Source: an uncultured Bacilli bacterium (lineage in GTDB: Bacteria > Bacillota_I > Bacilli_A > RF39 > UBA660). Taken from it: a stretch of DNA of 12,365 bases. Of this stretch, positions 854 to 9,828 are shown in pieces. The position numbers and the translations under genes are program-made. How positions within the stretch are numbered: position 1 is the stretch's first letter; each line of letters begins with the position of its first letter. The notes beneath the pieces are model-generated. The model was given only the letters and a program-made list of their open reading frames with translations, was not told the origin of the DNA and ran no database searches. The stretch is from contig CALVVD010000015.1 in assembly GCA_944363745.1 (NCBI GenBank), positions 1 through 12,365 on the forward strand, read 5' to 3'.

Positions 854-1246
854 TTAAAGTAAATCTATAAGCTTAGGAACAAAAATCATTAAAGCTATAA
901 TTGCACTAGTAACACTAAGTACAAACTCTGCTGCACTTGCTGTATCTTTAGCAACTTTAGCAAGAGGATGAAACTCTTTAGTAACAAGATCAACTGTACT
1001 TTCTATCGCTGTATTTATAAGTTCAACTACTAAAGTTAAGCCAATAATTGCAATTATGATTAACCATTGTGTCATTGATATTTTTAAGAAAAAACTAAAT
1101 AATAGTAAAATAATTGTACATATTAAATGAATATACATACTCTGTTCATTTTTATATGCAACTTTTAAGCCATTACAAGAATTTTTAACACTGGAAATAA
1201 TTCTTTTAAATCCAAATTGTTTATTATTTCTCTCTAGTGATGCCAT
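854..1246 (-). CDS. dgkA: diacylglycerol/undecaprenol kinase family protein
   Basis: A 130-residue integral membrane kinase of the DgkA family. In Bacillota this family phosphorylates undecaprenol (or diacylglycerol) with ATP and so feeds the lipid carrier used for cell-wall synthesis. Visible family signatures are the NE pair at residues 33-34, ELINTAIE at 75-82 and the conserved K97/K100-D101 stretch before the last helix. Three hydrophobic segments lie at about 38-55, 58-80 and 104-127, the expected trimeric-kinase topology. The ATG at 1246 lies inside the end of ybeY, giving a 23-base overlap. The nearest AGGAGG is 12 bases upstream, rather far, so translational coupling to ybeY is likely. 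Gene order ybeY-dgkA is standard in Bacillota. Confidence 0.93.
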   Translation of the reverse strand: MASLERNNKQFGFKRIISSVKNSCNGLKVAYKNEQSMYIHLICTIILLLFSFFLKISMTQWLIIIAIIGLTLVVELINTAIESTVDLVTKEFHPLAKVAKDTASAAEFVLSVTSAIIALMIFVPKLIDLL

Positions 1247-1691
1247 ATTTAATCAAAACCTCCTCTTGTTTTTTAAACATAATTTCCTCTTCTTCTTTAG
1301 TTTCATGATCATAACCTAGTAGATGATAAAGACCATGAACTGCCAAAAAACATAATTCTCGCTCAATTGAATGTCCATACTCCTTCGCTTGTTCTTTTGC
1401 TTTATCTAAACAAATATAAATATCACCTAATAACCTTGTCCCATCAGGAATAACCATACTTTTCTCATCTTCTAGAGCAAAACTAATTACATCAGTTACT
1501 CTATCAATACCTCTATATTCTTTATTTAATTTATGAATATAAGCATTATCTACAATTATTATACTACAACTAGCTTTTTCTAATCTTTCAATTTCGAAAG
1601 CCTTATTAATTACTTTTTCAATTATATCACTATAAGGAAACTCTTTATCTGTCTCATTATAGATAGTAACCTCATTCACAGTTTTAATCAC
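1224..1691 (-). CDS. ybeY: endoribonuclease YbeY (16S rRNA maturation factor)
   Basis: A 155-residue zinc-dependent endoribonuclease of the YbeY family, involved in 16S rRNA 3'-end maturation and ribosome quality control. The metal-binding H3 motif HGLYHLLGYDH is at residues 119-129, with the three zinc-ligand histidines at 119, 123 and 129. The conserved LNKEYRGIDRVTDVISF segment is at about 55-70. Length is typical. The first in-frame start is a GTG at 1691, only two bases after AAGGAA; the ATT at 1688 would sit at a more usual distance, so the start is slightly uncertain. The gene follows the VanZ-like gene and overlaps dgkA. Its product and RpsU, encoded at the head of this cluster, both act on the small ribosomal subunit. 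Confidence 0.95.
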   Translation of the reverse strand: MIKTVNEVTIYNETDKEFPYSDIIEKVINKAFEIERLEKASCSIIIVDNAYIHKLNKEYRGIDRVTDVISFALEDEKSMVIPDGTRLLGDIYICLDKAKEQAKEYGHSIERELCFLAVHGLYHLLGYDHETKEEEEIMFKKQEEVLIKYGITREK

Positions 1692-1734
1692 GTTCCTTTC
1701 TAATGCCTATAATATATCATAAAAAAAGAAGTTT

Positions 1735-2346
1735 TTAAAGTAATGTTATTAAACCGACTAAAAGAATAATAGACACTAAATTTAAAAACCACTCTGCTTG
1801 AAAGACTTTAGGACACATATTTCCTATCTTTAAAATAATAATATATAAATAATGTCCTAATATGCCACCAATTATATTTAATAATATATCATCAATATCA
1901 AAAACTCTACCTATCATTAACTGTGTTGTTTCAATTGTTAAAGATGCCACTGCTGTTAGTATGAATATTGGCAATAATTTTTTTTCTTTTAAAAAGTAAC
2001 TTGTAAAAAATCCATATGGTAAAAACATAATGATATTACCTAAAACATTCTTTAAAAATAATCTACTACCTAAATTATATCTAAACATCTCTCTAAAAGG
2101 GATTAAATTATTACTAGAGATATTATTATTATCTTGAAAAGTAACTACTTGGAACAAACATAATATATAAATAATAAAAGATAAAGCGATAAGTTCTTTA
2201 TATAAACAAAATTCTTTTTTATTTTTTATAATATCTGCAACTCTTAAAGTAATTGCAACAACAACTGAAATAATTACCATCGGTAAGCTGAAAGAAAAAA
2301 CATTTCCTATAGTTTCACCAATACTAGAAAACATTACATCACCCAC
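1735..2346 (-). CDS. VanZ-like membrane protein
   Basis: About 200 residues with four or five hydrophobic helices. It carries the VanZ-family pattern: NLIPF at 80-84, then LGNIIMFLPYGF at 102-113, E139 with Q142, and GRVFDIDDILLNIIGG at 146-161. VanZ confers low-level teicoplanin resistance in enterococci, but most VanZ-like proteins have no known role; a cell-envelope function is the usual inference. The first in-frame start is the GTG at 2346 inside the end of yqfD. I prefer the ATG at 2334, because GTGGGTGA lies a suitable distance before it and the yqfD stop is at 2339-2341. The gene occupies the place where phoH and yqfF are usually found between yqfD and ybeY. Confidence 0.85.
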   Translation of the reverse strand: MGDVMFSSIGETIGNVFSFSLPMVIISVVVAITLRVADIIKNKKEFCLYKELIALSFIIYILCLFQVVTFQDNNNISSNNLIPFREMFRYNLGSRLFLKNVLGNIIMFLPYGFFTSYFLKEKKLLPIFILTAVASLTIETTQLMIGRVFDIDDILLNIIGGILGHYLYIIILKIGNMCPKVFQAEWFLNLVSIILLVGLITLL

Positions 2347-3514
2347 TTTCTAAAGCTTGTTTCTTATTTTCTTCTTCTATATTAAAATCTTTTAAAGAAC
2401 TATAACTTGTAATATCTTCTTCTATTTTATAAAAGATTTCTATATCTATTCTATCAGTATTTCTTTCTTTTTTCAAAACATTTCTATCAATTACTTTAAT
2501 ATCTGAGCCTAATTTATTTTTTAATTTTTCTAAAGCTAGATCATAAACACTATCCAAATCATTTTCAAAATTTATATTTATTAATTCTACTTCACTTTTC
2601 TTAGTATAACTTAAACTAAGTGGTAACAAATTATGTTTCCAAATAATATTCTTTTTGCTCTTATAATTTTTATAATGATTTAACGATGTTAATTCTATAT
2701 CATTATTTAAAAAATTTATTTCTAAAACATTTTTACTATTATTTGTTCTTTTTTCTTCTTTATAACTAAGTGGTAAACTTAAAGAAACTTTATACCAAAC
2801 TTCTGCAAAAGCCTTCCCTTTCGCACTAACTTTACTAACAATATTATCATTATTTTTAATTAAACCACTAATTAAAACATCTCCCTTATTAACATAAGCA
2901 TATTTTTTAGTAACTACTTCACCACTATCTGCCTCTATCCTTGTAATCATACCACTTTTAGATGCTATTATATTACGAGGTTCATTTTCTTTAACTTCTT
3001 CATTCTTAACTCTTTTTATAACATTAACATTATAACTAACCCCATCTTCTTCAATTTCAATCCACTCTAACAAATCTTTTTCTTTATCTAATATTTTACT
3101 TTCTATCTTTTCTTTCTCATCATAACTAACTTTAAATTTATATTTAGAAATTCCTAACTCTTTTAAATCAGTTAAAATAATATCACTTAACTCTTCATCA
3201 TCTAAAACTACTTTAACATCAAAAATTATATTAGTTAATAATGTTAAAAAAAGAAATCCCAAAATTAAAGATATAATAAAAAGTTTTCTTACTTTAAAGA
3301 AATTTATAAAATAAATTAATCCTTTTCTTTTAACTATCTCTATTTTATAAGTAGTTTTAAGTTTCTTTAACTTTTCATAATCTTCTTCTAATACTTCTAT
3401 AATAATATAATCTCTACTACTTTTTATCTTTCTAAAACAAATATTAAATCTAACTAAAAACATTATAAAAGTATCTATTCTTTTACCTGTAATTTTTAAT
3501 ATATATCTACTCAT
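2339..3514 (-). CDS. yqfD: YqfD family protein (sporulation-associated)
   Basis: A 391-residue protein with one transmembrane helix at about 77-98 and a long following domain containing KSGMITRIEADSGE and VNKGDVLISG, the signature segment of the YqfD family. In Bacillus subtilis yqfD lies next to yqfC, is transcribed in the mother cell, and its loss affects sporulation at a middle stage. The biochemical role is unknown. The start overlaps the end of yqfC by 8 bases, so the two are almost certainly co-translated. The Lys/Glu/Ile-rich composition fits the A+T-rich genome. Presence of the pair does not prove that the organism sporulates, since it also persists in some lineages not known to form spores. 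Confidence 0.88.
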   Translation of the reverse strand: MSRYILKITGKRIDTFIMFLVRFNICFRKIKSSRDYIIIEVLEEDYEKLKKLKTTYKIEIVKRKGLIYFINFFKVRKLFIISLILGFLFLTLLTNIIFDVKVVLDDEELSDIILTDLKELGISKYKFKVSYDEKEKIESKILDKEKDLLEWIEIEEDGVSYNVNVIKRVKNEEVKENEPRNIIASKSGMITRIEADSGEVVTKKYAYVNKGDVLISGLIKNNDNIVSKVSAKGKAFAEVWYKVSLSLPLSYKEEKRTNNSKNVLEINFLNNDIELTSLNHYKNYKSKKNIIWKHNLLPLSLSYTKKSEVELININFENDLDSVYDLALEKLKNKLGSDIKVIDRNVLKKERNTDRIDIEIFYKIEEDITSYSSLKDFNIEEENKKQALESG

Positions 3515-3749
3515 CTTTTATCTCTAAACTCTCTAAATTTCCTATTATTAATATTTCTTTATCTGCAAGTTTATTTAAAGAAAATTCTCTGCCTATTAAA
3601 GATACTTTTTTATCATTAGTTTTAATAGTTATCTTAGAACTACCTAAAGAAATAATTCTTTTGTAATTACAAATATGTATTTTATTATCATAAATATCAA
3701 TATGAAATAAAGAAGGATCAAGAAAATTACGTAATTTATCACTTAACAT
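3507..3749 (-). CDS. yqfC: YqfC family sporulation-associated protein
   Basis: An 80-residue protein in the yqfC position between rpsU and yqfD. It has the family pattern: hydrophobic strands around a central YKRIISLGSSKITIKT stretch, then VSLIGREFSLNKLADKEILI. YqfC is a small protein of unknown mechanism required for efficient sporulation in B. subtilis. A GTG at 3758 is also in frame. I choose the ATG at 3749, because AGGTGA lies five bases before it and overlaps that GTG. The last codons overlap yqfD. The identification rests as much on position as on sequence. Confidence 0.78.
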   Translation of the reverse strand: MLSDKLRNFLDPSLFHIDIYDNKIHICNYKRIISLGSSKITIKTNDKKVSLIGREFSLNKLADKEILIIGNLESLEIKDE

Positions 3750-3783
3750 AGCTTTCACCTAATAAAGTGTATGATATTTACAA

Positions 3784-3812
3784 AGAAAAAAGAAACTAAA
3801 TTAATTAGTCTC
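3784..3812 (-). terminator. rho-independent terminator or attenuator after rpsU
   Basis: On the minus strand GAGACTAA pairs with TTAGTTTC (8 bp with one G-U pair) around a five-base loop, followed by TTTTTTC. The left arm includes the last rpsU codons and the stop codon. It lies between rpsU and yqfC, so it probably reduces read-through and lets rpsU be expressed above the downstream genes. Confidence 0.75.
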
Positions 3813-4008
3813 TTTCTCTTCTTCTTTTACGTTCATTCTTACGAGCATTCTTAATAGCTTCTTTCTTAGCCTTTCTTCTTCTAACTCCTGGTTTATCATA
3901 AGCATCGTGTTTTTTCGCTTCAGAAGGGACACCACTTTTTGCAAGCTTTTGTTTATATCTTTTAATAGCATAATCTAGATTACCATTTTTAACTTGAACT
4001 TGTGCCAT
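3805..4008 (-). CDS. rpsU: 30S ribosomal protein S21
   Basis: A 67-residue, strongly basic protein of the bS21 family, a small-subunit protein near the platform that helps initiation on mRNAs with Shine-Dalgarno sequences. It has the family N-terminus with LDYAIKRYKQKLAKSGV, followed by a conserved basic stretch (KPGVRRRKAKKEAIKNARK) and a final RKRRRERD tail. The ATG at 4008 is preceded by GGGAGGG at good spacing. It has its own consensus-like promoter and a hairpin right at its stop codon. It heads the yqfC-yqfD-ybeY-dgkA cluster, as in other Bacillota. Confidence 0.96.
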   Translation of the reverse strand: MAQVQVKNGNLDYAIKRYKQKLAKSGVPSEAKKHDAYDKPGVRRRKAKKEAIKNARKNERKRRRERD

Positions 4009-4098: not shown

Positions 4099-4221
4099 TT
4101 AGAGCAAAGAAGTTAACATTTCTCCTAAAAATATTCCAAAATTATAGACTAAGATAACAAATAAAGTCTCTAAAATAACAAATGATATTTTTTTAAAAAT
4201 ACTTTTTAATCTAAGGGACAA
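4099..4221 (-). CDS. possible 40-aa hydrophobic peptide, bacteriocin immunity candidate
   Basis: An open frame of 40 codons starting with TTG at 4221 and ending TAA at 4099. It overlaps the last 16 bases of the second precursor peptide. The start follows GGAAGTGG by six bases, which could serve as a ribosome site. The N-terminus is basic (R4, K6, K10, K11) and is followed by one long hydrophobic stretch at about 12-33, so it would insert in the membrane. Position directly after the two precursors is where cognate immunity genes of class II bacteriocins usually sit, and small membrane immunity peptides are known. The TTG start and short length make it uncertain that the frame is translated. 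The rpsU promoter begins about 25 bases downstream. Confidence 0.45.
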   Translation of the reverse strand: MSLRLKSIFKKISFVILETLFVILVYNFGIFLGEMLTSLL

Positions 4222-4379
4222 GTATTACCACTTCCTATTCTTCTAATAGATGAACCTAACTTTCTTCCTGCTGATATTAAAATATCAATTAAATCACCAA
4301 TATAGTTAATCATAGAACTAGTTAGGCTACTACTTCCTCCCTTTATATTCTTTAATTCTTTATTATTTAACCTTTTCAT
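4206..4379 (-). CDS. double-glycine precursor peptide B (putative two-peptide bacteriocin)
   Basis: A 57-residue precursor beginning MKRLNNKELKNIKGG. The 15-residue leader has the consensus of substrates cleaved after Gly-Gly by C39-peptidase exporters and shares NKELKNIKGG with the peptide encoded just upstream. The mature part (42 aa) starts SSSLTSSM, contains the GxxxG motif G38-RKL-G42 and four basic residues (R39, K40, R46, R47) in a likely amphipathic helix, and ends SGNTCPLD with a single cysteine at 54. The ATG shares its A with the stop of peptide A (TAATG), and GGAGGTG in the end of the A gene is the ribosome site, so translation is coupled. A class IIb bacteriocin partner is the best reading; a signalling peptide is possible but less likely. 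Confidence 0.85.
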   Translation of the reverse strand: MKRLNNKELKNIKGGSSSLTSSMINYIGDLIDILISAGRKLGSSIRRIGSGNTCPLD

Positions 4380-4525
4380 TATTCACCTCCACATGGTTCT
4401 GGATTAGTAATACCACTAATAACACCTACTAAGAAAGCAACTAAAGCAGATATACCTATCACTAACCCTAATGATGCTTCTCCACCTTTAATATTCTTTA
4501 ATTCCTTATTTGTCAATTCTTTCAT
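4379..4525 (-). CDS. double-glycine precursor peptide A (putative two-peptide bacteriocin)
   Basis: A 48-residue precursor, MKELTNKELKNIKGG followed by a 33-residue mature part. The leader matches double-glycine leaders and its twin in peptide B. The mature peptide is very hydrophobic, with G20xxxG24 and G34xxxG38 motifs of the kind through which helices of two-peptide bacteriocins associate, and ends in NPEPCGGE with a single cysteine at 44. The Pro-x-Cys ending recalls, from memory, class IIb-like peptides of gut Bacillota; the exact family is unchecked. GGAGGG lies five bases before the ATG at 4525, which overlaps the stop of the preceding gene as ATGA. It is followed, with a one-base overlap, by peptide B. 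Confidence 0.87.
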   Translation of the reverse strand: MKELTNKELKNIKGGEASLGLVIGISALVAFLVGVISGITNPEPCGGE

Positions 4526-4905
4526 TTTTCCCTCCAACAATCAATAATCAAACTAAATAAAGTTCTTTTAGTATCTTGAATTATTATAGTCTCTATATTA
4601 TTAGTAGTTTTTAATTTCTTAGAAAATTCTAAAGTAAAGATAATATTTTTATCTACTTTATTAAAGTCTTTAATTTTATAAGTATATTTATCATCATTAA
4701 AATATAAATAACTATTATCAAAAAATAAATTCTTAGAAGCTTTATCTACAATTACTTGATAAATATAATCTGTATCTTTAATAATAGAGTAAGATTTATA
4801 AGTCCATATTTTAAATCTTAAAAGATAATATAAAAATAATATAATTAAAATTAATATAAAGAATGTAAAAAAATTAAGTAAATTATTTCTATTAAAATTT
4901 CTCAT
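4522..4905 (-). CDS. one-helix membrane protein of the bacteriocin operon
   Basis: A 127-residue protein with a basic N-terminus, one hydrophobic helix at about 10-30, and a roughly 95-residue domain predicted to lie outside the membrane, alternating in strand-like pattern and rich in Lys, Asn and Ile. I do not recognise a named family with certainty. Size, topology and position between exporter and precursors fit a shortened HlyD-like accessory protein (such exporters often need a membrane-fusion partner) or an immunity protein. The start at 4905 overlaps the end of the exporter gene by 14 bases, and its TGA overlaps the ATG of peptide A, so it is an integral member of the operon. Confidence 0.75.
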   Translation of the reverse strand: MRNFNRNNLLNFFTFFILILIILFLYYLLRFKIWTYKSYSIIKDTDYIYQVIVDKASKNLFFDNSYLYFNDDKYTYKIKDFNKVDKNIIFTLEFSKKLKTTNNIETIIIQDTKRTLFSLIIDCWREK

Positions 4906-6976
4906 AACATTTCCCCTTATCTAGATAAAAGATTCTATTAAATAAATTTTTATTTGTAAGACGATGAGAAATATAAATAACAATTTTATCTTTATAATAT
5001 TTTAAAATATTTTCTAATATCTCTTTTTCTAATTTAGTATCTACATTACTAAGACATTCATCTAAAATTAAAACTTCACTAGGTTTAAACAACCCCTGTG
5101 CTAGACTTATTCTACTTCTTTCTCCTTTACTTAAATTTTCACCATTATCATAAATAACTGTATCTAAATCATAATTTTTATCGTGTAATAATTTATTGAC
5201 ACCAGTCATTTTTAAGAGTTGATCTAAATTAATAAATGGTTTTCTATCAAGATAAATGTTATCTTTTAAATTACCATTACTTAACATTTCATCATTTGGT
5301 ATATAAGTAATTAAATTTCTAAGATCTGCTAAATTATAATGTGTTATATCTATATTACCTATTTTAATGTGATTATAATTAACTGGTAAATATCTACCTA
5401 ATAGTTTTACTAAAGTACTTTTACCACTTCCAGAATTTCCATATATAAATACTTTATCTTTAGAATTTATCTTAATATTAATATTATCTAATATAAGATT
5501 ATCAGTATATTTAAAAGATAAGTTTTTAATAACAATAGATAAATTATGATTAGAATAATTATAGTTTAAAGGAAGTAATACTTCTCCTTGTAAAGAGAAT
5601 ATATCCTCTAATCTTTCTTTTATTTTAAAACATTCTTGGTATTTAAAAACTACTAAAATTATCGCTTCTATATTTTTTAAGGCCATAAAGATAAAGCTTT
5701 CTATTAAAATAAAAGTAGCAAGACTAATTGTATTAGTAGTAATTAATAAAACACCTGTTACTCCTAAAATAAAAAGATAAGAAAATCCTTCAAAAAGATT
5801 AAGAATATTACTTATAAAGTATTTATATCTATTAACACTATAACTAGCTTCTATATTATTTCCCATTGCTTTTGAAAAACTTTTAGCCATTACTTTCTCT
5901 AAGTTTAAACCCTTAATTTTTTCATTATTATTAATTACTTGTTGAACTTTATTATCATATTTATTTTTCGTTTGATAATACCTTTCTAAATTATAGATAC
6001 TTATTTTTCTTTGTAACCATATAAATATAAATAACAAAATATTACTTATAAATAAGATTATTACCATAATACTATTTAAGTAACAAAAGAAAATATAAAT
6101 AAATAATAAGATGAAAATACTATTTATAATAGTTAAAAATGATGAAATAAAATACTCTGAAAAGATATCAATATCATTAAATAAAGATATAATAACTCCC
6201 CTTTCTTTAGTTTGATAATATATATTTGGAAGTGTTAATAAGTGATTAATTAGAGTCAATTTAAGATTATAACTGAATTTGGCATTTAATTTACTTATAT
6301 GTAAATTAATAATGAAAGTAAGAATATTTTTTAATATTAAGAGTATTAAAAAAGTAAATAATAGAACAAGTAAATTATATAGTGACTTATTAATAATAGA
6401 ATTATTTAAGATTACTTTTAAGGAAAATAGATTTAAAAGTTCTAAACAAAGAGAAAAACAAATTAAAATAATGATAACTATTATGGTTTTCTTTCTTTTT
6501 TTGATAAGATTAGTTAAAACATTTTTAATAATATTAATTTTATTAATCTTTTTTATGTTACTAGTCTTTTCAATAAAAAGATAATTATGGGTGGTGATAT
6601 TGTTAAATTCCTCTAAAGTCAACTCTTTAATTCCAATACTAGGATCTTTAATAATTATTTTTTTAGGAGTTATCTTTATAATTATTACATAATGAAATCC
6701 ACCATCATTAAGTTTTAGATGAGCAATAAAAGGGGTATTTTTATTATTTACAGTTGTAATAATACCATTAACTCCATAACTATTAAATCCCAAATTTCTA
6801 GCTGCCATCATAAGTCCATACATACTACTACCTTCTTTAGTAGTGTAACTAATTTTTTCTAAATAACTTCTTGTTACATTACACTTATAATACTTTAATA
6901 TTGATAATAATGAACTTACTCCACAGTCATAATTACTTTGCTGAAATTCTAATTTTAATCTTTTTATTATTAACAC
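4892..6976 (-). CDS. peptidase-containing ABC exporter for double-glycine peptides
   Basis: A 694-residue half-transporter of the bacteriocin-processing (PCAT/SunT-like) type. Residues 1-135 form a C39 peptidase with Q12, C18 in NYDCG, H95 in GGFHYV and D111 in KDPSIG, the expected catalytic set. Six hydrophobic helices span about 163-440. The nucleotide-binding domain has Walker A GNSGSGKST at 513-521, signature LSKGE at 615-619, Walker B VLILDE at 635-640 and H-loop H671. The usual Q-loop glutamine appears to be Asn (YIPND, N561). It should remove the leaders of peptides A and B after Gly-Gly and export the mature parts. The listed GTG start overlaps AGGAGGTG; initiation may be at a nearby ATA codon. 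It heads a four- or five-gene operon. Confidence 0.93.
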   Translation of the reverse strand: MLIIKRLKLEFQQSNYDCGVSSLLSILKYYKCNVTRSYLEKISYTTKEGSSMYGLMMAARNLGFNSYGVNGIITTVNNKNTPFIAHLKLNDGGFHYVIIIKITPKKIIIKDPSIGIKELTLEEFNNITTHNYLFIEKTSNIKKINKINIIKNVLTNLIKKRKKTIIVIIILICFSLCLELLNLFSLKVILNNSIINKSLYNLLVLLFTFLILLILKNILTFIINLHISKLNAKFSYNLKLTLINHLLTLPNIYYQTKERGVIISLFNDIDIFSEYFISSFLTIINSIFILLFIYIFFCYLNSIMVIILFISNILLFIFIWLQRKISIYNLERYYQTKNKYDNKVQQVINNNEKIKGLNLEKVMAKSFSKAMGNNIEASYSVNRYKYFISNILNLFEGFSYLFILGVTGVLLITTNTISLATFILIESFIFMALKNIEAIILVVFKYQECFKIKERLEDIFSLQGEVLLPLNYNYSNHNLSIVIKNLSFKYTDNLILDNINIKINSKDKVFIYGNSGSGKSTLVKLLGRYLPVNYNHIKIGNIDITHYNLADLRNLITYIPNDEMLSNGNLKDNIYLDRKPFINLDQLLKMTGVNKLLHDKNYDLDTVIYDNGENLSKGERSRISLAQGLFKPSEVLILDECLSNVDTKLEKEILENILKYYKDKIVIYISHRLTNKNLFNRIFYLDKGKCYEKF

Positions 6977-7049: not shown

Positions 7050-7099
7050 ATCTCTTTATATTTCAATGACTGTAATAAAATAAGGTTAAGGTGGTAAAG

Positions 7100-7558
7100 A
7101 TGCAGTTTGGGAAAATTAGAGATTTAAGAGAAGATCATGATTTAAAACAATATCAAGTTGCTAAATTTCTAGGTGTTAAAAGAACCACTTATGCAATGTG
7201 GGAATTAGGCGATGTCAACTTTCCAATTGAAAAAGTAGTTAAACTAGCCAAGTTTTTCCATACTAATGTTGAATATATGCTAGAATTAACTCCAGATAAA
7301 AGAGAATTTATTTATGATAAAGATATAACAAAAGAATTTATTGGACAACAGTTAAAAAGATATCGCTTAAAATTAAAGAAAACACAAAAAGAATTTGCAG
7401 ATGTTTTAAATATTAGACAATCAAGTTATTCATATTATGAAGATGGTAAGACAAGAATACCAACAAACAAGTTAGTTATTCTTACTAAGAAATACCATAT
7501 TCCATTAAATTTAATTTGTGGTGGTAAGAGAAAAGAAAATATAACTATAAAAATGTAA
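7100..7558 (+). CDS. transcriptional regulator with two Cro/CI-type HTH domains
   Basis: A 152-residue protein with two tandem XRE-family helix-turn-helix domains, at about residues 1-62 (LREDHDLKQYQVAKFLGVKR, then WELGDVNFP) and 78-140 (RYRLKLKKTQKEFADVLNIR, then YEDGKTRIP). There is no sensor or peptidase domain. A GTG at 7091 is in frame, but AAGGTGG (7088-7094) overlaps it and fits the ATG at 7100. The gene is divergent from the bacteriocin operon, with 124 bases between, so it is a natural candidate for its regulator. Two HTH domains in one chain would allow binding of two half-sites without dimerisation. It could also act on the tRNA promoter immediately downstream. The target is inferred, not shown. 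Confidence 0.88.
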   Translation: MQFGKIRDLREDHDLKQYQVAKFLGVKRTTYAMWELGDVNFPIEKVVKLAKFFHTNVEYMLELTPDKREFIYDKDITKEFIGQQLKRYRLKLKKTQKEFADVLNIRQSSYSYYEDGKTRIPTNKLVILTKKYHIPLNLICGGKRKENITIKM

Positions 7559-7627: not shown

Positions 7628-7701
7628 TCGGAAGTATTTTAATAGTAGAACCTCAGCCTTCCAAGCTGACTACGGGAGTTCGATTCTCCTCATCCGCTCC
7701 A
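7628..7701 (+). tRNA. tRNA-Gly(UCC)-like gene with degenerate 5' half
   Basis: The 74 bases fold as a tRNA with encoded CCA (7699-7701). Anticodon stem TCAGC/GCTGA, loop CTTCCAA with anticodon TCC at 7660-7662, T-stem GGGAG/CTCCT and loop TTCGATT are all intact and match bacterial tRNA-Gly. The 5' half is abnormal: position 1 is T opposite C72, position 6 is A opposite A67, position 10 is T opposite C25, and the first G of the D-loop GG pair is A. A perfect promoter lies upstream and a strong terminator downstream, so it is probably transcribed. It may be a decaying tRNA, or a specialised glycine tRNA: cell-wall tRNA-Gly of staphylococci also lacks the D-loop GG pair. The acceptor mismatches argue against normal function. 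Confidence 0.7.
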
Positions 7702-7770
7702 ATTGATAACTAAAAGAGCTTAGCTATGTACTAAGTTCTTTTTTATTATCTCCCGTAGTCAGTTTGGAAG
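7658..7770. repeat. 21-base inverted repeat between tRNA and downstream remnant
   Basis: Bases 7658-7678 (anticodon loop, 3' anticodon stem, variable region and 5' T-stem of the tRNA) are the reverse complement of 7750-7770 at 20 of 21 positions. The one difference (G7665 against T7763) would be a G-U pair in RNA. The tRNA terminator lies between the arms. Confidence 0.85.
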
Positions 7771-7797
7771 AAAAATACTTTCTATTCCTATAAAAAG
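7699..7797. repeat. 99-bp direct repeat, copy 1 (tRNA 3' end side)
   Basis: Aligned without gaps to 9730-9828, about 86 of 99 bases are identical; the first 57 bases differ at only three or four positions. It begins at the CCA end of the tRNA, contains the terminator hairpin and continues into sequence homologous to the coding tail of the nuclease-like gene. Confidence 0.9.
7712..7746 (+). terminator. rho-independent terminator of the tRNA-like gene
   Basis: AAAAGAGCTTAG (7712-7723) pairs with CTAAGTTCTTTT (7731-7742) with one G-U pair, around the loop CTATGTA; the 3' arm runs into TTTTTTATTAT. On the minus strand the hairpin is also followed by a T-rich stretch, so it can act in both directions. 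Confidence 0.85.
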
Positions 7798-7944: not shown

Positions 7945-7962
7945 CCCCATTGCCATCTTTTA
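7923..7962. terminator. terminator at the end of the HD-domain gene
   Basis: On the minus strand AAAAGATG follows the HD stop codon and pairs with CATCTTTT, with a 20-odd-base spacer containing GGGG, then more T residues. The plus strand also offers AAAAGATG/CATCTTTT followed by ATTTG, so it may work both ways. The large loop makes it weaker than the other terminators here. Confidence 0.5.
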
Positions 7963-9555
7963 TTTGTTTATTTTAACTAATTTACGTGAAATTGTTTCAT
8001 CAACTGGTGGCACATAATCAACTAAATAGAATCCATATAAATGACCATATTTTTTCATTACTTCTTGTACTCTACTTAGCTTTCCAGTTTTATCAAATAA
8101 TATTTTAGATTCTACAAGTTGTTCAACTCTATGAACTTCACTAGGATTAATAGCAGTTGTCGAATATCTATTCTCATAGTCATAATCAAATGCAACATTA
8201 ACACCTGTCTTATTATTTTTGGCAATTTTATAATTTAATTTTTCCATTAATCTGTCATAAGTATAATAATCTGCTCTTGATTCTAATAAAACTACTATAT
8301 TTAATGTTCCTTTACTATACTTTGAATCTTGATAATTTGTTAAATAAACAGCATCTATATTATCATCTTTGTATAACTCTTTAATAGTATCAGTCAATTT
8401 TTCTGATAAAAATGAATGCTCATCATCTGTAAGATTTATTCTTTCTCTTACTACTTTGTCTAAATATAGTAAATTATTTGCTCTAGCAATTTTTAATATA
8501 TTCGCAAATTCTGGAAATTGATTATCACTTGCATATATATTTTTATCCCATTCATACCATATATCAAATGCATCTTTTGCACCATCTTTTACCATTTGTT
8601 GAACTCTTGAACTATTAAAAACAACATTATTTTTTTGATCATCTAATGAGTGATGCATTCCTTTATCTTGATAAATCTTTGCTTGTAAATCGGCTTCAAT
8701 TTTATCGCAATAATGTGAATATTTAGCTTCTGGTGTTCCTTGCTCATCAAACTCAAATAATAAAGTTAGTAAACTATCTTTTTCTTTTAAATTACCTAAT
8801 GCATCTCTCATAGCGTGATGTTCAATTTCTTTTTTCTTCTCTGGTGTTATTCCATCAAATGGTGTAATATCACCAATTAATGTTTCTCCAGTTTCGTGTA
8901 TAGTTAGTATTTTTAACACTTTATCAATATCTAAATTATATTCAAATTCAGAATTAAACACCATTGCCAAACTTAAAGTTCCAATTATATGTTCAGATAT
9001 TGTTTCAATTCTATTAGACTTAATATTCCAATGTTTACTGTCCCAACCAGTTCTTACTTTATTTTTCAATCTAAAGTTAAGATAATAAAATTTAAAGATT
9101 TCTTCACATTCAGAAGGTTGTTTACTACATAGTGAAGATATAATTGTATTTCCTTCTTTAATTAATTCTGATGGCGAAATATTATTTTCTTTATCTTTAA
9201 TTAATTTAGTTAATAAAAGGTCTAGCATTTTATATTTGAATACTAATTTACCATCTTCAGTACTTATATCTCTTGATTCTAATATTTCACTAGCATATTG
9301 CTTTCCTAACCTTAAACTTTCAAAATCATAATTAGGATACAAAATACTAAATTCAGAAAGAAGTAACATCCTATATATTTTTGCTAAATTATTTGTTTCC
9401 TTAAATTCAGAATCAATAGCAGTTGCTAATATCATACTGCCAAATAAGTGATCAGCTACACTATAATTATTTAGTTCATCAATAATTTTATTTTTTAACT
9501 CATTTGAACAAACATAAAAGTCTAATGATTTTCTTATTTCTTCTAATTTTTCCAT
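7960..9555 (-). CDS. double HD-domain protein with C-terminal nucleotidyltransferase-like domain
   Basis: 531 residues from the ATG at 9555, preceded by GGGGGA; a GTG at 9567 is less likely. Counting from that GTG, the central HD domain (about 175-310) follows the YfbR/HDDC2 nucleotidase pattern: H193 in ISEH, H224-E225 in IHETGE where HD is usual, GDITPFDG at 232-239 and D288 in CDKIEADLQAK. The N-terminal part (about 35-85) repeats its start (SVADHLFGSMILA against TISEHIIGTLSLA) but lacks HD and GD, so it is a degenerate copy. The last 140 residues, with SKGTLNIVVLL and ILFDKTGKL, resemble minimal nucleotidyltransferases without a clear DxD. It may hydrolyse nucleotides; the role is unknown. 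It lies between the two copies of a 99-bp direct repeat. Confidence 0.8.
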   Translation of the reverse strand: MEKLEEIRKSLDFYVCSNELKNKIIDELNNYSVADHLFGSMILATAIDSEFKETNNLAKIYRMLLLSEFSILYPNYDFESLRLGKQYASEILESRDISTEDGKLVFKYKMLDLLLTKLIKDKENNISPSELIKEGNTIISSLCSKQPSECEEIFKFYYLNFRLKNKVRTGWDSKHWNIKSNRIETISEHIIGTLSLAMVFNSEFEYNLDIDKVLKILTIHETGETLIGDITPFDGITPEKKKEIEHHAMRDALGNLKEKDSLLTLLFEFDEQGTPEAKYSHYCDKIEADLQAKIYQDKGMHHSLDDQKNNVVFNSSRVQQMVKDGAKDAFDIWYEWDKNIYASDNQFPEFANILKIARANNLLYLDKVVRERINLTDDEHSFLSEKLTDTIKELYKDDNIDAVYLTNYQDSKYSKGTLNIVVLLESRADYYTYDRLMEKLNYKIAKNNKTGVNVAFDYDYENRYSTTAINPSEVHRVEQLVESKILFDKTGKLSRVQEVMKKYGHLYGFYLVDYVPPVDETISRKLVKINK

Positions 9556-9575
9556 ATTATCCCCCACAAATAAGT

Positions 9576-9627: not shown

Positions 9628-9729
9628 ATTTACTTAATTATAATAAGATTTATTGTCTAAATATTTTTAGTGATTAGTTTTTTATCAAATTTTACTAGTA
9701 AGAGTTTCAAATAGCCTTTGTTATTGGCT

Positions 9730-9828
9730 CTAATTGATAACAAAAAGAGTTTAGCTATGTACTAAGTTCTTTTTTATTATATTCCGTAGTAAACTTGGAA
9801 AAAAGATACTTTTTCTGCCTATAAAAAG
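9730..9828. repeat. 99-bp direct repeat, copy 2 (nuclease gene 3' end)
   Basis: The partner of 7699-7797, same orientation, 2,031 bp away. It contains the terminator hairpin and the last 24 codons of the nuclease-like gene, but not the tRNA: upstream of it only GGCTCTAATTG resembles the tRNA end. Confidence 0.9.
9739..9773 (-). terminator. terminator overlapping the end of the nuclease-like gene
   Basis: AAAAGAGTTTAG (9743-9754) and CTAAGTTCTTTT (9762-9773) pair with two wobble positions around CTATGTA. On the minus strand the hairpin ends in CTCTTTTTG. The gene's TAG (9757-9755) lies in the loop, so its last codons form one arm. Confidence 0.7.

Follow-up and report, generated by a model that had tools for sequence, protein, structure and literature searches.

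A class IIb-like two-peptide operon as a putative core locus, mostly inherited, of one family of small-genome gut Bacilli

Introduction

Bacteriocin loci are generally seen as patchy accessory weapons; can an operon with the anatomy of such a weapon be a fixture of a whole bacterial family? The question is raised by a compact operon on the minus strand of a 12,365-nt stretch of contig CALVVD010000015.1 (‘the window’ below meaning that whole stretch), which encodes an ATP-binding cassette (ABC) exporter with a C39 peptidase, a one-helix accessory protein and two short precursors with double-glycine (GG) leaders. With the locus detected in 357 of 386 species genomes from an uncultured family of small-genome gut bacteria, it would be a core trait there. 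On balance, we think it probable that the operon encodes a membrane-active pair of peptides of a class IIb-like kind, and that it has become a core locus, passed on mostly by descent, in one family of gut Bacilli with small genomes.

An earlier note, made from the letters of the window, had described the exporter, the one-helix protein, precursors of 48 and 57 codons with the common leader NKELKNIKGG, a TAATG junction and overlaps between genes, and all of these are present. It made no mention of a third open reading frame (ORF), of single cysteines in the peptides, of the rpsU-yabP-yqfD-ybeY neighbourhood or of the near-universal, largely inherited distribution, with which much of what follows is concerned. 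The genes of the operon are as follows (aa, amino acids).

4892..6976, minus strand: C39-peptidase ABC exporter, 694 aa from a GTG start (PF03412 at 97.7 bits, PF00005, PF00664), with leader cleavage and export predicted
4522..4905, minus strand: accessory protein, 127 aa, with an N-terminal transmembrane helix and a small beta barrel (predicted structure)
4379..4525, minus strand: precursor 1, 48 aa, GG leader, hydrophobic mature part EASLGLVIGISALVAFLVGVISGITNPEPCGGE (TIGR03949; 14 homologues)
4206..4379, minus strand: precursor 2, 57 aa, GG leader, mature part SSSLTSSMINYIGDLIDILISAGRKLGSSIRRIGSGNTCPLD (leader model TIGR01847; 27 homologues)
4099..4221, minus strand: third ORF, 40 aa, TTG start, leaderless, one hydrophobic helix with GxxxG; candidate immunity peptide resembling peptide 2

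Exporter and accessory genes overlap by 14 nt, accessory gene and precursor 1 by 4 nt, and the two precursors by 1 nt, at the TAATG; the third ORF overlaps the end of precursor 2 by 16 nt. The sequence GGAGGG lies ahead of the precursor 1 start, with GGAGGTG within the end of precursor 1, ahead of precursor 2.

Distribution across genomes

A search of 5.8 billion proteins returned 27 homologues of peptide 2 (one of them the window’s own) and 14 of peptide 1. For finding kin, YqfD was the guide (best identity 44%). The family sample consists of 386 genomes, one per species, from the family of genome G109. Here the peptide 2 profile A1 matched 342 genomes at E <= 0.1, and the broader A4 regained 17 of the 44 negatives; when A4 was applied to 58 low-scoring A1 positives, 56 were confirmed, and the two weak matches that failed (G208 and G379) are subtracted in the total of 357. 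Twenty-seven genomes are negative with both profiles, and 18 of these are also without a detectable rpsU. In a wider sample of 149 genomes of the class, 16 of the 17 genomes common to the family sample match at E <= 0.001 and the seventeenth (G123) does so with A4; the other 132 give a single match (G008), limited to model positions 1-30 and hence to the leader. None of 148 genomes in a class sample around G003 matches peptide 2 at E <= 1e-5, in a search run without a positive control, and viral contigs searched with alignment A1 gave no match.

The surroundings of the peptides were followed in 120 stretches from the family, fetched as two sets and chosen from listed matches, not at random. 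Fourteen are without the cluster, and of the genomes concerned eight carry peptide 2 elsewhere and six have none detected. This gives 107 loci with peptide 2, including the window; peptide 1 lies just upstream in 104, and the exporter is found in 101 of the 102 loci having more than 1.5 kb of upstream sequence. Downstream sequence of more than 2.5 kb is available for 88 loci, and 52 of these have rpsU no further than 1.5 kb downstream (45/55 in the first set, 7/33 in the second): the cluster is conserved, but has been relocated in many lineages.

Genomes of the family are mostly near 1.1 Mb in size. No match to purF over the model cut-off was found in 30 family genomes, whereas 13 of 14 controls have one; weaker matches occur in 21 of the 30, mostly frames of about 600 aa, which we take for other amidotransferases. 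PMC13155120, as excerpted, describes UBA660 of the order RF39 as genome-reduced, and RF39 as without genes for de novo nucleic-acid synthesis, a description that the sampled family would appear to fit; we take it, presumptively, to be UBA660. A literature search that was not exhaustive found no paper that deals with this locus. There are, however, large catalogues from the gut (PMC12648078, in excerpt), and these or the IIBacFinder tables may already contain the peptides.

Inheritance and selection

Congruence was assessed for the 20 loci at which yqfD, ybeY and the VanZ-like gene are all present, a set that is syntenic by construction and in which YqfD differs on average at 60% of its residues. 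The exporter tree has 15 of 17 splits in common with the housekeeping tree (1000 label shuffles gave a mean of 0.1 and a maximum of 2), and none of 2000 permutations reached the observed Mantel correlations (exporter 0.87, peptides 0.88). We therefore regard the operon as mostly inherited, and not patchy.

In five close species, mean proportions of nonsynonymous and synonymous differences (pN/pS) are 0.209/0.574 for peptide 1, 0.199/0.590 for peptide 2 and 0.203/0.540 for YqfD, with 0.253/0.585 for the exporter, 0.380/0.606 for the accessory gene and 0.338/0.536 for the third ORF. The mean ratios of 0.34 and 0.36 for peptides 2 and 1, 0.38 for YqfD and 0.63 for the third ORF are rough, because pS is near saturation. 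The earlier note had proposed conservation in relatives and substitution ratios as a check on whether the two small frames are genes at all; with their 14 and 27 homologues, and ratios near that of YqfD, both peptides are coding and change at about the slow pace of YqfD.

To be present in nearly all genomes, to agree with housekeeping genes in its trees and to be under purifying selection close to that on YqfD is also what would be expected of a domesticated system, derived from a bacteriocin and no longer a weapon, that acts in the producer itself through controlled self-lysis, DNA release or an envelope function. The anatomy speaks for the other side, as secreted two-peptide bacteriocins are usually equipped in just this way, with a C39 exporter of their own and a pair of GG-leader peptides that carry GxxxG. 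We consider such domestication unlikely, if well worth keeping in view, and return to it once the third ORF has been described.

The precursor peptides

The two precursors yield mature parts of 33 and 42 residues. Precursor 1 scores 27.2 bits against TIGR03949, the class IIb lactobin A/cerein 7B model, and so exceeds its curated cut-off of 21.5, whereas precursor 2 reaches 12.6 bits; among aligned relatives, 40/52 of peptide 1 and 14/56 of peptide 2 match this model at E <= 0.01. Both precursors exceed the cut-off of the double-glycine leader model TIGR01847, a check that the earlier note had suggested (precursor 2 at 18.5 bits against 15.7). The matches of precursor 2 are largely limited to its leader, and mature peptide 2 matches no curated family. 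The claim that the precursors are new and unlisted thus holds only in part, mature peptide 2 being unlisted and peptide 1 and both leaders being covered by curated models. A PDB sequence search with the peptide profiles gave nothing significant, the best bacteriocin chains matching the leader only weakly (E 0.13-0.41).

The GxxxG motifs reported for both mature parts are indeed there, as GLVIG and GVISG in peptide 1 and GRKLG in peptide 2. Across relatives they occur in 102 of 104 peptide 1 cores (shuffled mean 52, maximum 65) and in 105 of 107 peptide 2 cores (shuffled mean 26, maximum 43). In peptide 1 (52 aligned of 65) G15 and G34 are invariant, with M1, G14, F31, G38, P42 and C45 conserved in at least 90%; in peptide 2 (56 aligned of 67) G15, G38 and G42 are invariant, with M1, G14, R46, R47 and C54 at that level. 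As to charge, the cationic character that the earlier note gave to one partner is weak in the window’s copy (net charge +1 for mature peptide 2, as against -3 for mature peptide 1); in the relatives, peptide 2 averages +2.8 (n=107) and peptide 1 +1.0 (n=104).

Some particulars of the alignments bear on these counts. Because of the common leader, the first iterative hidden Markov model did not keep the two peptides apart, and exclusive assignment was used instead; this drew third ORFs into peptide 2 (76 rows from 67 loci), such that one peptide 2 row per locus was kept and third ORFs were removed by motif. Alignment A3 holds 53 of 54 rows, A4 (peptide 2) 56 of 67 and A5 (peptide 1) 52 of 65, with near-duplicates and the divergent L099 and L120 omitted from A4 and A5. 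For three of the 52 aligned relatives of peptide 1 there is a match to the model of the MPN313 family at E <= 0.01, the best being 4.2e-4. Locus L120 has an additional GG-leader peptide beside precursors 1 and 2, and in locus L054 a 227-aa ORF (6008-6691), methyltransferase-like by eye, lies between them.

By its anatomy, namely paired GG-leader precursors, GxxxG motifs, a C39 exporter with invariant catalytic residues and pairing in 104 of 107 loci, the operon would belong with class IIb, as the earlier note had proposed, and its products probably act on membranes as two peptides that pair through GxxxG after export by the C39 transporter. Might it then be an ordinary class IIb cluster of the lactobin A/cerein 7B kind, which owes its wide distribution to low diversity of the sampled genomes? 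The TIGR03949 matches of peptide 1 and of most of its aligned relatives would agree with this. The genomes were taken one per species, however, and the divergence of the carriers, as measured by YqfD in the 20 loci, already speaks against a low-diversity explanation, as does the absence of peptide 2 matches from the 148 genomes around G003, within the limits of that search. This explanation seems to us improbable.

Less probable still, and to our minds very unlikely, is a signalling role, in which the peptides would be secreted for kin to sense, in the manner of ComC/BlpC pheromones. The leader does resemble ComC models, under their cut-off, and a helix-turn-helix (HTH) gene stands beside some copies; but the matches to pheromone models cover the leader, the mature parts are two hydrophobic partners, 33 and 42 residues long, with GxxxG, and no receptor-kinase gene was seen among the ORFs of the window.

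C-terminal cysteines

Each peptide has a near-fixed cysteine towards its C-terminus. Scored by position relative to GxxxG, 98 of the 104 loci have it in both peptides, five (L096, L099, L161, L171 and L173) in neither, and L120 is discordant; read by eye, L120 has both, which brings the count to 99. Exactly one cysteine is present in each core in 52 of 65 pairs. The simplest reading of these co-conserved residues, judged from the alignments, is a disulfide between peptides 1 and 2, so that the heterodimer is perhaps covalent.

The third ORF and candidate immunity

Third ORFs were called by position, length (30-75 aa), hydropathy and lack of an early GG, with no requirement for GxxxG. Of the 107 loci, 45 have a counterpart, whose start precedes the last base of the precursor 2 stop codon by 7 to 23 nt (mostly 16 nt, in 22 loci, or 13 nt, in 15); the count varies with the rule (41/67, as against 39 of the same 67), and 45/107 rests on the latter. 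GxxxG is nevertheless present in 44 of the 45 (shuffled mean 5.7, maximum 10). A third-ORF profile of 41 rows can be aligned to that of mature peptide 2 across 32 columns (hhalign probability 95.7%, score 36.9), with 100 column permutations reaching at most 10.6 and the reversed control 12.9; it gives no alignment with peptide 1. On the exporter tree, its presence (42 of 101 tips) needs at least 17 changes (shuffled mean 32, minimum 25), and so the third ORF comes and goes.

According to PMC6957408, in the portion drawn on here, the immunity mechanism of two-peptide bacteriocins ‘remains a mystery’. The third ORF is a candidate immunity peptide that may mimic peptide 2, and as such offers a direct partner-mimic model of this immunity. 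In its full form, the proposal is that a leaderless, membrane-anchored copy of the peptide 2 GxxxG segment captures peptide 1 in the membrane of the producer, the weapon itself being a pair of disulfide-linked peptides that an entire family of gut bacteria with small genomes has retained by inheritance; we offer this tentatively, as a possibility that we regard as rather doubtful in its entirety.

The exporter and accessory protein

The exporter matches TIGR01193 at E 4.5e-86, yet under its cut-off, and its best matches among solved structures are ComA and the ABC-type bacteriocin transporter 4ry2. In all 64 exporters compared, C18, H95, D111, the Walker A lysine, the signature serine, the Walker B DE and the H-loop histidine are invariant. 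A scan of genome contigs found 15 distant exporter loci (22-33% identity in the best segment), and one strict pattern detected no GG-leader peptide at any of them. In plasmids, at least 5000 records matched the exporter, none across more than 80% of its length, and a search with P0027 gave four chance-like matches only. The GTG start at window position 6976 lies inside AGGAGGTG, and because of this translation may in fact begin shortly downstream, at a less common start codon.

For the accessory protein, a transmembrane helix and, after it, a small beta barrel are predicted with confidence. Small barrels of many sorts match it in structure, including adaptors of the HlyD/MFP type, and these matches do not decide the kind of barrel; Foldseek returned nothing at E <= 0.001. 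Against NF045999 (the MAG1140 family) it scores 22.2 bits, under the cut-off of 35 (E 1.2e-4), and 15 of 53 members of the accessory family match. This points to a distant relative of the MAG1140 family, outside the NF045999 model. When the MAG1140 family was sought in 296 genomes of the class, 32 matched, six of them over the cut-off, and all of the seven best-matching genomes (L137-L143) have an exporter and a MAG1140-type gene directly upstream of ybeY, and no pair of precursors was found in the interval before ybeY. We take these seven for mycoplasmas, because MAG1140 owes its name to that group and TGA is read through in some of the frames. As ybeY also lies downstream of the operon in the window, the unit of exporter and accessory gene may be older than the split; an excerpt of PMC7301438 places RF39 as a neighbour of Mycoplasmatales.

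Genomic neighbourhood in the window

Outside the operon, the following genes are relevant.

7091..7558, plus strand: divergent tandem-HTH gene (PF01381 twice), possible operon regulator
3805..4008, minus strand: rpsU (S21), downstream neighbour, named from reading, without a family search
1224..3758, minus strand: yabP-like (PF07873), yqfD, VanZ-like and ybeY genes, the syntenic markers; VanZ-like and ybeY named from reading

The order past precursor 2 is third ORF, rpsU, yabP-like, yqfD, VanZ-like, ybeY and dgkA (the last also named from reading); yqfD matches TIGR02876 at E 1e-58, under the model cut-off. A homologue of the tandem-HTH gene adjoins the exporter in L042-L045, L047, L056, L059, L062 and L063, out of 40 loci. 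Beyond this gene, Rfam places a tRNA at 7628-7698 on the plus strand (42.8 bits, gathering score 29), which ARAGORN missed and whose anticodon reads by eye as TCC (glycine). A direct repeat of 102 nt (87%) at 7696-7797 and 9727-9828 begins at the 3' end of this tRNA and flanks an HD-domain gene (7960-9567); the segment looks like an insertion at the tRNA.

A model for the system, and what weighs against it

From the above, a proposed course of events can be set out. The C39 domain would cut both leaders after GG, and the ABC part would export the cores, aided by the barrel protein. The two helices would then pair through GxxxG, and a disulfide between the peptides may lock them, such that the pair inserts into the membranes of neighbouring cells and causes leakage. 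The third peptide, where present, would stay in the producer membrane and occupy peptide 1, thereby conferring immunity. A benefit, and here we speculate, could be that cells without a detected purF scavenge from neighbours that have lysed.

The default assumption for such a system is that it kills neighbouring cells. Its main rival is a role in the producer, given how widespread the locus is and how slowly it changes. Several points weigh against the preferred reading. Bacteriocins are usually patchy, and a locus that is near-universal, slow to evolve and for the most part inherited does not resemble them, and fits a producer role too; the congruence covers 20 syntenic loci only; nine genomes have rpsU, yet peptide 2 is not detected in them; and, with so few loci of the second set having rpsU nearby, the locus does move. 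For the cysteines, a simpler rule gives 99 loci with both, three with peptide 1 only and two with neither, the discordance of the three arising because they have another cysteine inside the GxxxG segment; co-loss amounts to two events on the exporter tree (four placeable losses) plus L171, which is off the tree, having no exporter in its fetched stretch. As to the third ORF, seven short examples, the window’s included, score just 12.8 against peptide 2, next to the reversed control, and tie to it only via other third ORFs (30.4). Finally, 62 of the 107 loci (34 of 40 in the second set) have no third ORF, so it cannot be the sole protection. This absence also suits a domesticated system, while the existence of a leaderless, peptide-2-like membrane peptide, which fits self-protection, tells the other way.

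Comparison with known systems

The system to which models NF045998 and NF045999 refer, and which we take to belong to Mycoplasma, resembles the operon in that a one-helix protein of this type comes after a C39 exporter, and differs in the precursor pair, none being found before ybeY. With the class IIb systems of TIGR03949, the operon has in common the double-glycine leader, GxxxG, a C39 ABC exporter and a peptide 1 that passes the model; it differs in that peptide 2 fails the model, in the near-fixed C-terminal cysteine of each partner, and in being near-universal in its family.

Gallocin A is likewise a two-peptide bacteriocin, and needs disulfide bonds for activity, as stated in the part of PMC10100652 used here. 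Its bonds are intramolecular, whereas most of our pairs have exactly one mature cysteine per peptide. A parallel in distribution is CibAB/CibC of Streptococcus pneumoniae, a two-peptide system with its own immunity protein that is, in the excerpted account of PMC13059744, universally present in that species, with cibABC of S. mitis in 26.9% of 253 genomes. Compared by description only, the two systems are alike in their widespread presence, and differ in that CibAB is fixed in one species; going by that account, its universality in S. pneumoniae implies that a two-peptide bacteriocin can become fixed in a species.

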